A stretch of DNA of 64,000 nucleotides from Sorangium aterium (GTDB lineage Bacteria; Myxococcota_A; Polyangia; Polyangiales; Polyangiaceae). Location: assembly GCF_028368935.1 (NCBI RefSeq), contig NZ_JAQNDK010000006.1, positions 649,001 to 713,000 on the forward strand, written 5' to 3'. Positions 6,336 through 9,916 of this stretch are shown in pieces (the first letter of the stretch is position 1; each line of letters starts with the position of its first letter). The notes beneath the pieces are model-generated. The model did no database searches, was not told the DNA's origin, and worked only from the letters and a program-made list of their open reading frames with translations. The position numbers and the translations under genes are program-made.

Positions 6336-7973
6336 CTACTGCTGCTCCTGCGCCATCGCCGCGGCGAAGCGCAGCAGCCCCTCGCCCCAGCCGCCGAGGA
6401 TGTACGTGCGGTCATAGAACTCGGGCACGAGCGTGTCCTGGTACCCGGCGACCTGGACAAGGAACACGCGCACGTCGCGGTTCACCCGCGCGCGGTACGT
6501 CGCCACGAGCTTCGCCACGTCGATGTAGTGCCCGTTCCAGGCGAAGTCCGCGTAGTCCTTCGGCCGCGTACCGTACAGGCCGCCGTGGCCGGCCTGCATG
6601 TCGCTCATCACGAACACCGAGTCCCAGCGCTGCCGCTCGCGGATCGCGCGATCCCAGAAGAGCCACACGCCGTTCTCGGTCGCCGTCCCGATCGTGCGGG
6701 CGATGTGCTCCGCCTTCTCGAGCTGCGAGAACACGCTCTCCTGCTTGCGCACCGCGAACGTCTCCAGCCGGTCGCCGAACACGCCGAGGTGCCCGTCGCT
6801 CGCGCGCATCCCGGCCACGACCCCCGTGAGGTTCGCGATCGTGGAGATCTGCATCGTCCCGAGGCTGCTCGTGGTCGTGCCCTGCGCGGAGCCGCTGTTG
6901 TCGCAGAGCACCATCACGCGGCCGGGGAAGTACGGCACCTGGCCGAGCGAGCGGTCCAGGCACTTCTCCACCGCGTCGAGCACGGCGCCCGGCGCGCAGC
7001 CCTTCACGGCGCGGTAGGCGCTGTAGTACCGGAACGGCAGCTGCTTCCCCTCCGCGGCCGTCTCGACGAGCTTCGGCAGGAACTGGTCGAACGGCACGCC
7101 CGCCTCGATCAGGTTGCGCAGGTTGCGCAGCAGGGCCATGTGGCCCATGACCGGCAGCGCCTTGCGCCACGCGCACCGGTTCGAGCCGCGCGCCGAGACG
7201 ATCGCCTCCCAGGTGCGGCCGGTCGCGCGGAGCGCGCCCTTCGCGAGGCGGTCCACGCTGGGGCTCTTCGGGTGCACGAGGTTCATGACGTCCACGGTCT
7301 TGCTCCCCTTGCCCTCGAGCCGGTACTTCGCGAGGGCGTGATCGTCGAACCGCTCGAGCGCGTCGCGCAGCGCGCGCTTCAGCGCGTTCGGCACCGGCTT
7401 GCCGAAGCGGTAGAGCTGGTACGCGAGGGCGACCGCCGGCTCGTCCGCGCGCTTCAGGATGCGCGGCGCGTAGCTGCGCACGAGGCCCGTCCCGCGCACG
7501 GACGCGGTGTTCGCCGCGCGCACAAGGATGACCTGGGGCGTCGTGCGCATGTGCTCCTCCTCGCGCAGCCGCGCCGCCTCGGCGAGCGTCGCCTCCGGAT
7601 CGGCCGCGAGCGCCTCGTCGATGGCCTTCTCGATCAGCGCCGCCGGCGAGAGCTTGCGCCACTCGGCCGGGTCCACCGCGCCCAGCGTCTCGCGCAGGCG
7701 CCGCACCTCGGCGTCCGAGAGGCGCGCGCGGGCGGCCGCCTTCTTCGCCGCCTTCACCGACGCCTTCGCCTTCGCCGCATTGACGGTCTTCGCCGGGCGC
7801 GGATCCGCGGGATCGAGATGGTAGTACATCGGCTCGCCGAAGAAGCACGACGAGGCCGCGAGGCGGAGGCGCTTCAGCGGATCGGTGATGTCGTAGGAGC
7901 GGCCGCCCATCCAGTTCAGGTGCGAGTCGGCGCTGCGCTTGTCCTGACGCTTGAGATGCTGAAAGAACGCCAT
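6336..7973 (-). CDS. Ro60/TROVE-domain RNA-binding protein (Rsr homologue)
   Basis: A 545-aa protein, close to the size of vertebrate Ro60 and Deinococcus Rsr. The N-terminal TROVE (HEAT-repeat ring) region covers about residues 20-340. The C-terminal von Willebrand A domain begins with VMVLCDNSGSAQG, giving a DxSGS metal site. Family members bind noncoding Y RNAs and misfolded or structured RNA, and can partner the exoribonuclease PNPase. The frame is open further upstream, but the ATG at 7973 has a clear Shine-Dalgarno (GGAGGTGG) eight bases away, so I start there. A tRNA-like RNA gene lies 166 bp upstream on the same strand, the arrangement expected for a Y RNA and its Ro partner. Confidence 0.9.
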   Translation of the reverse strand: MAFFQHLKRQDKRSADSHLNWMGGRSYDITDPLKRLRLAASSCFFGEPMYYHLDPADPRPAKTVNAAKAKASVKAAKKAAARARLSDAEVRRLRETLGAVDPAEWRKLSPAALIEKAIDEALAADPEATLAEAARLREEEHMRTTPQVILVRAANTASVRGTGLVRSYAPRILKRADEPAVALAYQLYRFGKPVPNALKRALRDALERFDDHALAKYRLEGKGSKTVDVMNLVHPKSPSVDRLAKGALRATGRTWEAIVSARGSNRCAWRKALPVMGHMALLRNLRNLIEAGVPFDQFLPKLVETAAEGKQLPFRYYSAYRAVKGCAPGAVLDAVEKCLDRSLGQVPYFPGRVMVLCDNSGSAQGTTTSSLGTMQISTIANLTGVVAGMRASDGHLGVFGDRLETFAVRKQESVFSQLEKAEHIARTIGTATENGVWLFWDRAIRERQRWDSVFVMSDMQAGHGGLYGTRPKDYADFAWNGHYIDVAKLVATYRARVNRDVRVFLVQVAGYQDTLVPEFYDRTYILGGWGEGLLRFAAAMAQEQQ

Positions 7974-8057
7974 GATGCCACCTCCATCCTCGACGCATGC
8001 GCGGCGAGGGATCGAAAGCGGGGTGCAGATTCGATGTGCGCACCGCTCGTAGAAAAC

Positions 8058-8138
8058 GGGCGCAGCGCGGAGGATGGTGATCACGGGGTTGGTCGTGTCA
8101 AAACGAAGGAACCGTGATCTCACTGCCGCGCTGCGCCC
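8058..8138 (-). other. nested stem-loop between the tRNA-like RNA and the Ro60 gene
   Basis: A perfect 13-bp stem (8058-8070 with 8126-8138) encloses a perfect 8-bp stem (8079-8086 with 8112-8119). Internal loops of 8 and 6 bases separate them, and the apical loop is 25 bases. On the minus-strand RNA it begins directly after the CCA of the tRNA-like gene and is followed by GUUUUCUA. It could be a second Ro-binding RNA module, the 3' half of one bipartite Y RNA, or a terminator/attenuator ahead of the Ro60 mRNA. The two perfect helices are direct observation; the role is inference. Confidence 0.6.
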
Positions 8139-8276
8139 TGGTGCCAGAGGCGGGACTCGAACCCGCGACCTCGTCCTGAGAAGGGAAGTAACCCCGGAGC
8201 TCACTGCCGGCGCTCATCGCGCCGGAGAACACCGTCCGGAGTTGTTTTCGCGCTCTAACCGCTGAGCTACTCTGGC
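8139..8276 (-). ncRNA. tRNA-mimicking Y RNA candidate (YrlA-like)
   Basis: Read on the minus strand, this 138-nt gene has a perfect 7-bp acceptor stem (GCCAGAG/CTCTGGC), discriminator A, an encoded CCA, a 4-bp D stem with loop AGCGGTTA, and a 5-bp T stem with loop TTCGAGT. The tertiary-core bases U8, A14, G15, G18, G19, A21, U54, U55, C56, A58 and C48 are all in place. The anticodon arm is not normal. After two pairs (8250/8172, 8249/8173) comes an internal loop, then a 9-bp helix (8243-8235 with 8198-8190, one G-U pair), another internal loop, and a 7-bp helix (8225-8219 with 8213-8207) closed by GATGA. YrlA-class bacterial Y RNAs are known to contain a tRNA-like domain and to lie near Ro60 genes. 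The alternative, a real tRNA with an insertion, is less likely because no anticodon stem-loop forms. Confidence 0.72.
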
Positions 8277-8397
8277 GTGGACGCTGGGGGGTATTGCAGG
8301 GCGGATGCCAAGTCGGTCTCCGCGGGTGCCGACCGCAGAAACCCCGGGGGAACGGCCGAGAGCGAGGGTCGCTGACGTCTCCCGCCGGTCCGTTGTC

Positions 8398-8411
8398 TAT
8401 CCCATGGGATA
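8398..8411. promoter_or_regulatory. perfect 14-bp palindrome, possible operator
   Basis: TATCCCATGGGATA is a perfect palindrome followed by an A-rich stretch in otherwise very GC-rich DNA. It lies about 120 bp upstream of the tRNA-like RNA on that gene's strand. A dimeric regulator site controlling the Y RNA-Ro60 transcript is possible. Only the palindrome itself is certain. Confidence 0.35.
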
Positions 8412-8771
8412 AAAACCTAGATGAACTGATAGATCGGGCCAATCGCCGCGGTCGATGCGCCACCACCGTCGACGATCGTCTCCGCGGAACGATGTCGGGT
8501 TCAGCCGTTGCGCGCGGGTCTCGCTCGCGGGGAACCCCGGTGAAGGCTCGTTCGACAGCGCGCCGGACGCGCTCTGCGCGAGGGCGGGCGCGCGCGTTCA
8601 TCACCGTGGAGGTGCGGGGGACACGATCTGGGGTTTGGTAGAATTTTGAACCAACGCCCAGATCCGGACCTGGGAGCTGCGTCGTGACGCGTGCCCTGGG
8701 GAGGTCGAGACCTTCCGGGCGAGTCCGAGGGGAGATTTCCGCGAGGACGAGACCTTGGCGGAAGGTGCGCA

Positions 8772-9023
8772 GAGGAGGGCTCGGCCAGATCGCGGCCTCG
8801 GCGGCGGGCGGCAGAGGAGGGTTCGGCCAGATCGCGGCCTCGGCGGCGGGCGGCAGAGGAGGGCTCGGCCAGATCGCGGCCTCGGCGGCGGGCGGCAGAG
8901 GAGGGCTCGGCCAGATCGCGATCTCGACGGCAGGTGGGACACGAGGGGCTGGTCAGGTCGAGGCCTCCGGGGCAGGGGAGCGACGAGGGCTCGGCCAGAT
9001 CGAGACCTTGGCGGCTGCCGTGA
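8772..9023. repeat. six 42-bp tandem repeats
   Basis: Six consecutive 42-bp units start at 8772, 8814, 8856, 8898, 8940 and 8982. The core is GAGGAGGGCTCGGCCAGATC. Units 1-3 are nearly identical, unit 4 differs in its last third, and units 5-6 are diverged. Period 42 keeps frame, so each frame would give a 14-residue repeat. One frame from a GTG at 8684 gives GGLGQIAASAAGGR-like units and stops at 9085. I cannot tell a small repeat protein from non-coding repeats. Confidence 0.75.
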
Positions 9024-9358
9024 TCGGATCGATGGTCGAGCGACGGGTGGCGTCAGCCGCTGCGAGCCGGAGGCGCGCTCCGTGACGGGGCGCGCGCCGC
9101 GAGCGTCTCCGGGTCCGCCGCGCGATCGTCACCGCCGGCGCGCCGAGAGGAAACCGGCGGCGATCTCGGTTGTGTAGAGTGCGAGATGACGGCGCTCGTG
9201 GTCGGCTCATGGTGCATCGCGGCGGACGGATCCCTCGCGCCGAGGCTGCCGTGAACCTCGCCGCGCGATCCCGGCTCGGCCCGCAGGCCAGGGCCGAGGA
9301 GCTGCTCCCTCGTCCCGGCGACGGCGAGCGGTACGACCCGCCTGAGCAACTCGTTCCC

Positions 9359-9916
9359 ATGTCGTCCTCGGGCCTCCCGGCGTCCGGGGTGCGGATCTCG
9401 AGCGCAGCGGCCCTGGACGCGGAGGCGCTTTACCGCCGCCACCATCACCTCGTGTACCGACTCGCCCTCCGTTACGGCCGCGGCAACGTGGCCTGGGCAG
9501 AGGATGTGACGCAGGACGTATTTCTCGATCTGATGAAGGCGCTCGCGACGCTGACCGATCGAGACAACCTCGAAGGATGGCTGTACCGGGCGACCTCGAA
9601 TCGCTGCCTGAACCGCCTGCGGCGGGACCGGTTCCTCGATCTCGCGCCCATCCGCTGGCTGCTCGGGCAGGACGAGGCCGACCCGCGCCCGATGCTGGAG
9701 GAGGTGGCCATCGCGCGCGACGATCTGCGCCGGGCGTTCGAGGCGCTGGGGAAGCTGCCTCCCAAGGAGCAGATCGCGTTCTCGATGTTCTATCTCGACG
9801 GCAAGGAGCAGGAGGAGATCGGGAGCGTCCTTGGCCACTCCAAAAGCTACGTGTGCAAGCTGATTCAAAAGGCCGTCGCGCGGCTCCGCGAGGCCGGGTG
9901 GGAGGTGGGGCAATGA
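9359..9916 (+). CDS. ECF-type RNA polymerase sigma factor
   Basis: 185 aa. Region 2 (about residues 22-90) includes AEDVTQDVFLDLMKAL and LEGWLYRATSNRCLNRLRR, the core-binding and -10 recognition segment. Region 4 (about 125-180) has LPPKEQIAFSMFYLDGKEQ and the helix-turn-helix IGSVLGHSKSYVCKLIQKA. The frame is open to 9170; the ATG at 9359 gives a family-like N-terminus and I choose it, although the Shine-Dalgarno is weak. The stop overlaps the next start by ATGA (9913-9916), so the two genes are translationally coupled. This coupling is usual for an ECF factor and its anti-sigma. Confidence 0.9.
   Translation: MSSSGLPASGVRISSAAALDAEALYRRHHHLVYRLALRYGRGNVAWAEDVTQDVFLDLMKALATLTDRDNLEGWLYRATSNRCLNRLRRDRFLDLAPIRWLLGQDEADPRPMLEEVAIARDDLRRAFEALGKLPPKEQIAFSMFYLDGKEQEEIGSVLGHSKSYVCKLIQKAVARLREAGWEVGQ

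Follow-up and report, generated by a model that had tools for sequence, protein, structure and literature searches.

A linear tRNA-like RNA with a putative Ro60 docking arm precedes a divergent Ro60 gene in Sorangium aterium

The window analysed here is a 64-kb stretch of the Sorangium aterium genome; the whole assembly (13.47 Mb) is referred to below as the own genome. A tRNA-like RNA element and a second hairpin lie upstream of a gene for a Ro60-like protein, and a sigma-54-type promoter sequence and a palindrome lie further upstream (Table 1). The start of the protein gene was placed at the ATG at 7973 according to the MAFFQ start conserved in Sorangium, and the mechanical open reading frame extends to 8204, that is, into the tRNA-like element. 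The preliminary description of this DNA, which was made from the letters of the window, had already noted that the TROVE gene is located on the same strand at a distance of 166 bp and that the genuine tRNA-Arg of the window (33151-33076, anticodon UCU) is without an encoded CCA, and both observations hold. A tandem array (8769-9015, 42-bp unit, 5.9 copies, 83% matches) sits between the RNA locus and a gene for a sigma-70-type sigma factor (9170-9916).

Table 1. Features of the tRNA-like RNA locus, with positions in the 64-kb window and the evidence for each.
Feature	Position	Strand	Evidence
tRNA-like Y-type RNA (putative), 138 nt including encoded CCA	8139..8276	-	RF00005 48.1 bits; R1 model 131 bits (the window element is one of the sequences from which R1 was built); covariation, 24 sequences
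acceptor stem 5' strand, partner 8149-8143	8270..8276	-	double-sided changes in 6/7 pairs
D arm	8252..8267	-	D stem invariant, 24/24
anticodon stem 27-28, partner 8173-8172	8249..8250	-	both pairs double-sided (1 and 2 sequences; helix 3)
62-nt side arm between positions 28/29	8187..8248	-	helices 4-6 of 24-sequence alignment; sequence
Y strand, putative Ro60 site, CGGUGUUCU	8226..8234	-	UUCUC core kept in most relatives
X strand, putative Ro60 site, CAGUGAGC, running on to GGUUACUUC	8199..8206	-	comparison of relatives
remaining anticodon arm, UCC-CUUCUCA-GGA	8174..8186	-	all 3 pairs double-sided (helix 7); loops compared
anticodon stem 42-43, variable loop, T arm, acceptor 3' strand	8143..8173	-	model search and covariation
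second hairpin: same internal-loop module, opposite strand order, conserved apical loop	8058..8138	-	folding and comparison
divergent Ro60 (TROVE + vWA) gene, 545 aa, inferred start	6336..7973	-	PF05731 35.1 bits; A6 profile vs Ro60/Rsr; Foldseek
sigma-54-type promoter sequence TGGCATCCGCCCTGCA	8295..8310	-	11/12 consensus positions
palindrome TATCCCATGGGATA, enhancer-like	8398..8411		only TATC-N6-GATA within the window

The 545-aa product gave a partial match to the TROVE family (PF05731, 35.1 bits). A profile of 19 relatives (A6) compared with solved chains matched 9l5y and 9kop (E 4e-54), human Ro60 (1e-19), the Xenopus-type Ro 1yvp (3e-17) and the Rsr protein of Deinococcus (1e-13). With the AlphaFold model of the protein (pLDDT 77, pTM 0.74), Foldseek returned 13 matches at E<=0.001, all of which are Ro60/TROVE chains; the best two entries are 9kop (TROVE domain) and 9l5y, the Ro60 of Thermus phage phiLo. 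The phage protein shares the fold of the window protein at 22-23% identity in the fold alignments, and the Deinococcus Rsr (2nvo) shares it at 16%. Pfam, profile and predicted fold agree that the neighbour is a Ro60/TROVE protein, the kind of neighbour expected for a Y RNA, and on these grounds the gene is a divergent Ro60 gene.

The Rfam tRNA model (RF00005) matches positions 8276-8142 of the minus strand with 48.1 bits (E 3.4e-7, cut-off 29), and this match carries a 75-nt unmodelled stretch. Together with the acceptor, D and T arms it bears out the earlier reading of 8139-8276 as a tRNA mimic. ARAGORN called no tRNA at 8276-8139, and tmRNA models did not match the element, neither at the gathering score nor up to E 10. 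In tmRNA a tRNA-like domain is part of a longer RNA, whereas the window RNA has a full cloverleaf. Compared with dinucleotide shuffles, 3 of 200 were as stable as the tRNA-like part alone (z -2.6) and none of 200 was as stable as the whole region (z -4.7). The preliminary description had placed a two-helix insert where the anticodon arm should be. Both helices (8243-8235/8198-8190 and 8225-8219/8213-8207) are present as given there, but the arm has not been replaced: it is retained 3' of the insert and covaries. The stem starts with C27-G43 and G28-C42, is interrupted by the insert and continues with U29-A41, C30-G40 and C31-G39, which close the loop CUUCUCA. An initial pairing of this stem had given a constant U-C mismatch, which was gone once positions 27-28 were paired with 42-43.

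Covariation was analysed in 24 elements from Sorangium, Polyangium, Nannocystis, Paraliomyxa and metagenome-assembled genomes (MAGs), which were aligned by the model R1. In this alignment (A5), which was fitted to the model structure and includes near duplicates (L134/L136, Polyangium copies), 98.4% of the cells are paired, double-sided changes occur in 20 of the 34 pairs, and none of 500 shuffles reached the observed value on any of five measures. The insert helices, for which a search for compensatory changes had been proposed at the outset, do show such changes in the 24 elements. All five anticodon-stem pairs are double-sided, pairs 27-28 in one and two sequences only; the D stem and three of the five T-stem pairs are invariant and thus uninformative on covariation. 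An alignment of 17 sequences made without structure (A1) contained seven double-sided pairs, a value reached by 12 of 500 shuffles; further pair types were reached by 494 of the 500, and the other three measures beat all shuffles. At E<=0.001, R1 itself has matches in 182 of the order's 183 genomes, since ordinary tRNAs already reach about 50-56 bits; informative matches are those with higher scores or with long inserts read by eye. Its 17 founding elements score 127-150 bits, matching by construction.

The hairpin next to the element consists, as first described, of a 13-bp plus an 8-bp stem (8138-8058), and none of 200 dinucleotide shuffles was as stable (z -6.1). It had been proposed to be either the Ro-binding half or a terminator. 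We rejected the terminator, since there is no T run 3' of the hairpin in the window sequence and the hairpin carries the motif of the insert. Common to both are an X strand, GCAGUGA-helix-GGUUACUUC (most hairpins of Sorangium and Polyangium have GGUUCCUUCG instead of GGUUACUUC), and a Y strand, AACACC-helix-nnUUCUCC or a close variant. The strands follow each other as Y, short loop, X in the tRNA-like RNA, with the tRNA body at the open end, and as X, apical loop, Y in the hairpin. Altogether, 29 hairpins from Sorangium, Polyangium, other Myxococcota and MAGs labelled Chloroflexi, Bacilli and Actinomycetes were compared; both helices fold in 26 of them, and in the remaining three, once re-parsed, likewise by eye. 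Stability against base shuffles ranges across the copies from z -5.8 to about 0, and because the A+T-rich Chloroflexi copies are of weak stability, the motif alone speaks for those. The model built for the hairpin, R2 (12 pairs, from RNAalifold), performed weakly, with 3 matches in 79 viral loci. We infer that the shared module is a putative Ro60 dock; it is unlike the YrlA site sequence, so that this assignment comes from its recurrence and not from a known motif. The second hairpin accordingly resembles a further Ro60 site more than a terminator.

Sequences with GG and GC 12 apart that agree with at least 10 of the 12 positions of the sigma-54 consensus were scored as sigma-54-type sites. 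The site 19-34 nt upstream of the element (11/12) is the sole one with at least 11 positions in the 64 kb; at the threshold of at least 10 the window contains 14. Among the 24 aligned elements, 19 have a site within 80 nt upstream (16 of them with at least 11 positions), and the other five are second Polyangium tandem copies. A TATC-N6-GATA palindrome at -112 to -138 accompanies 10 of the 12 leading Sorangium and Polyangium elements and none of seven others; the form TATCCN4GGATA is found at two places in the 13.47-Mb genome. The palindrome is absent from the fetched rtcB-rtcR region, and an enhancer common with rtcB could not be shown. RtcR is encoded in 17 of 17 genomes searched, compared with 1 of 14 controls. 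In all six Polyangium genomes about 3-9 kb separate the RtcR domain from the closest tRNA-like copy, and rtcR is located beside rtcB in the one Polyangium and the one Sorangium-type genome examined, divergent from it in the one Polyangium examined by Pfam. The own genome encodes rtcA, rtcB and rtcR together on contig C7, away from the window. According to the matched passages of PMC7790460 and PMC8394870, the Salmonella operon rsr-yrlBA-rtcBA is under RtcR control and responds to tRNA fragments. With the rtcBA-rtcR genes of the own genome on another contig and the palindrome restricted to some relatives, control of the window locus by RtcR is a guess. If the sigma-54-type promoter works, it would tie the locus to the RNA-repair regulation known from Salmonella.

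Promoters and hairpins also bear on the alternative of a cis-acting leader of the Ro60 mRNA, in which the tRNA-like part and the hairpin would serve as regulatory folds or as signals for processing, with no free RNA. Such a leader would suit the common strand, the distance of 166 bp and a hairpin that is not followed by a T run, as well as the extra copy of the hairpin that precedes the Ro60 gene itself in six of six Polyangium genomes (L082 9207 and the equivalents in L083 and L085-L088). In Polyangium, however, 5-8 kb separate the tRNA-like copies from the Ro60 gene, the copies have a sigma-54-type site of their own, and in the two loci scanned (L082, L086) a separate 12/12 site is located just upstream of the Ro60 gene and its hairpin. 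A terminator-like hairpin comes after copy b in the one locus scanned, but with 1 found against 0.9 expected in shuffles this is weak alone. We consider a leader unlikely. The kilobases between the Polyangium tRNA-like copies and the Ro60 gene are at the same time a point against a partnership of this RNA with Ro60.

Exact removal of 8248-8187 leaves a perfect 5-bp stem with a UCU loop, so that the element could also be read as a tRNA-Arg gene with a short anticodon-stem intron, for which RtcB, encoded in the genome, would be a possible ligase. In five Sorangium-type copies the five anticodon-stem pairs are perfect around the insert, and the viral relative L313 has a CUGAUAA loop on an equally perfect stem. 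The loops of the 24 elements speak against a decoding tRNA: they are seven nt long in 16, six nt in six (Polyangium first copies) and irregular in two. Their second base is U in 22 of the 24, and the 16 seven-nt loops contain seven kinds of triplets (UCU, CCU, GUC, GUU, UUC, CUU, UAU) in place of the conserved anticodon identity of a tRNA. The form of the loop is thus kept while the triplets vary, that is, the tRNA shape is conserved and a single decoding identity is not. Moreover, the insert has a conserved module of its own, which it has in common with a hairpin outside any tRNA, and a normal tRNA-Arg(UCU) is already present in the window. The preliminary description would have given way to an ordinary tRNA with an intron of known type. 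The element is indeed scored by the tRNA model, but 75 nt stay unmodelled, and the 10 Rfam matches up to E 10 in 7950-8450 include no group I, group II or other intron family. The archaeal splicing endonuclease is not known from bacteria. An intron-containing decoding tRNA was rejected as the main reading on the variation of the anticodon loops, and its probability is low. A degenerate, non-functional tRNA with a chance insert would account for the rejection by ARAGORN, the drifting loops and a tRNA-like part only moderately above shuffles, and is contradicted by the strong covariation over divergent genera with a retained core, which makes it highly improbable.

The mimicry had been called unusually complete, including the encoded CCA. 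The cloverleaf is indeed full, and the CCA is present at 8141-8139; a CCA directly 3' of the acceptor is found in two of the 24 aligned elements (the window and So ceGT47) and thus lies outside the conserved design, which makes this part of the claim incidental.

The preliminary description had assigned the RNA to the YrlA class of Y RNAs. YrlA has been described with paired 5' and 3' ends and D, T and acceptor arms, and the order in its Rfam model is Ro strand, T arm, closed acceptor hairpin, D arm, Ro strand. The window RNA reads acceptor, D arm, side arm, anticodon arm, T arm, acceptor. Both RNAs have tRNA-like D, T and acceptor elements and a two-helix arm with an asymmetric internal loop; the window RNA differs in the retained anticodon arm, the open acceptor end and the sequence of the site. 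Neither the window RNA nor its aligned relatives show the permutation that would put the RNA ends into the Ro stem: all are linear, with a short loop joining the Y and X strands, and in the window no second D arm was seen downstream. The YrlA model (RF02553) scores the element with 17.3 bits (E 0.67, model positions 27-81 only), below its cut-off of 69. The Ro motif GNCGAAN0-1G was used as a lead; in place of the YrlA Ro-site strands GCGAAUGC / CUUGUCGC the element has CAGUGA / UUCUCC. We therefore rejected membership in YrlA on score, order and site sequence, and because YrlA is a circularly permuted tRNA and the window RNA is linear, the latter is set outside this class. The location beside a Ro60 gene is shared with YrlA, which in Salmonella, according to matched passages of PMC7790460, is encoded in an operon under RtcR. 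By position, partner and tRNA mimicry the window RNA would be a Y RNA that is not a YrlA member. The titles and abstract starts found and the matched passages of PMC7790460, PMC8394870, PMC9569102, PMC7824862 and PMC8190616 contain no mention of a linear Y RNA.

Searching named genomes with the TROVE alignment yielded 24 loci; in 12 of them a linear tRNA-like element is located directly upstream of the TROVE gene on the same strand. These are four Sorangium loci, Nannocystis, Paraliomyxa, five other MAGs close to these and a Clostridiales MAG (L140), whose chain is readable both ways. In four Polyangium loci the tRNA-like element lies 5-8 kb upstream of the TROVE gene. Five loci (L139, L141, L143, L144, L145; L139 and L145 come from one MAG) have, by reading, the permuted order and a module like that of the window RNA. 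Full-length YrlA matches of 40-45 bits, under the cut-off, were obtained for L141, L143 and L144, and L139 and L145 gave no YrlA match at E<=0.05. L138 and L146 contain only hairpins, and L142 was placed in no group.

Another Ro60 gene of the own genome is located on contig C1 within a tRNA array (L001 1480-5447; 13 tRNAs called by ARAGORN). BLASTP detected no similarity between its product and the window protein (E 1.2). The array holds a tRNA frame with an insert (L001 2838-2714), and a copy of the insert motif is also found in the spacer just upstream. From 60 TROVE loci of the class and 10 other loci we obtained 63 R1 hits of at least 110 nt. Hand-made patterns, which allowed loops of up to 26 nt, sorted them into 40 of a CUUGYCCG type, 11 chains with the YrlA motif, three of the GCAGUGA type, which are the elements of L131-L133 again, and nine others. 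The 40 hits are spread over 27 of the 70 loci, so that linear Y-type RNAs in tRNA order appear to be common in the class. In this second type a short loop connects a CUUGYCCG-like with a GGGCCG strand, and the strands resemble the YrlA Ro site (CUUGUC / CGAA). The CUUGYCCG / CGGGCCGAAG frames beside canonical Ro60 genes (L001 2838-2714, L156 521-396) share the non-permuted order, the insert in the anticodon arm, the short hairpin loop and the Ro60 neighbour with the window RNA, and differ from it in a site closer to that of YrlA. The chains in L140, L233, L238 and L240 consist of alternating units in which linear and permuted readings overlap. YrlA proper scores over the cut-off in two of 106 genomes of the family. 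At E<=0.001, 23 of the 106 genomes (including these two) match, as do 7 of 14 well-known control genomes (none over the cut-off), and thus the weaker YrlA matches are unreliable. The YrlA alignment A7 was too ragged for a third model to be built from it.

Taken together, a tRNA-mimicking Y RNA as partner of a Ro60 homologue, the core of the preliminary description, is supported by the linkage, the covariation, the shared module and the Ro60 fold; the assignment to the YrlA class did not stand. The RNA is probably a Y-type RNA that mimics a tRNA in non-permuted order, with a side arm on the anticodon stem that would dock the divergent Ro60 encoded just downstream; for the binding we rely on the linkage and the shared module. 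An enhancer-binding activator, with RtcR as candidate, might turn on the promoter, probably under RNA damage. A single transcript, starting a few bases before the acceptor stem, would then comprise the tRNA mimic, the hairpin and the Ro60 mRNA. Enzymes of tRNA processing could release the mimic, and Ro60 would bind the side arm of the freed RNA. The tRNA body, with elbow and anticodon arm intact, may serve as an adaptor or decoy, either by engaging factors that handle tRNAs or by competing with tRNAs for enzymes that damage them. This role is modelled on reports for the tRNA-like domain of YrlA: in matched passages of PMC8394870, YrlA is a substrate of DusA and TruB, and a bacterial Y RNA acts as a tether to PNPase. 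The second hairpin would be a Ro60 site without a tRNA, acting as a small Y RNA or as a leader site for feedback on the Ro60 mRNA. With an anticodon loop that is tRNA-like in shape and free in sequence, the RNA may act under RNA damage as bait or sensor for enzymes that handle tRNAs, or be one of their substrates.

Such a linear RNA with a full cloverleaf would be a direct evolutionary and structural link from tRNA to Y RNA, offers a second putative Ro60 site and hints at how Y RNAs arose from tRNAs. Viral contigs contain 456 matched stretches that encode Ro60 relatives, from which 79 loci were returned (L263-L341), and this Ro60 branch may be largely phage-borne. Linear frames with long inserts were found with R1 and by reading in the viral loci L313, L276/L277, L319, L290, L309, L331 and L338, where they occupy several different tRNA frames. 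We tentatively suggest, with the odds somewhat against it, that the Ro60-docking module is portable, having been inserted into tRNA genes as a cassette and moved from one tRNA gene to another by Ro60-bearing phages. Linear forms and tandem chains in the order acceptor-D-Y-X-T (L140, L238, L240) could then link ordinary tRNAs to the permuted YrlA, because cutting such a chain in the other register gives the permuted form.

Many of the viral contigs with this Ro60 branch are longer than 100 kb, and several adjoin tRNAs. On a Verrucomicrobiales contig (L144 1-371, 887-3177), a partial GOLLD match (97.7 bits, under the cut-off of 150), a tRNA array, a YrlA-like RNA and a Ro60 of this type all adjoin. 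In L216 (1-592), near a TROVE gene, long tRNA frames of 140-285 nt carry another repeated element, GCAGUACAGCG...GGGUUUCAUC, which is perhaps a third Ro60-site sequence.
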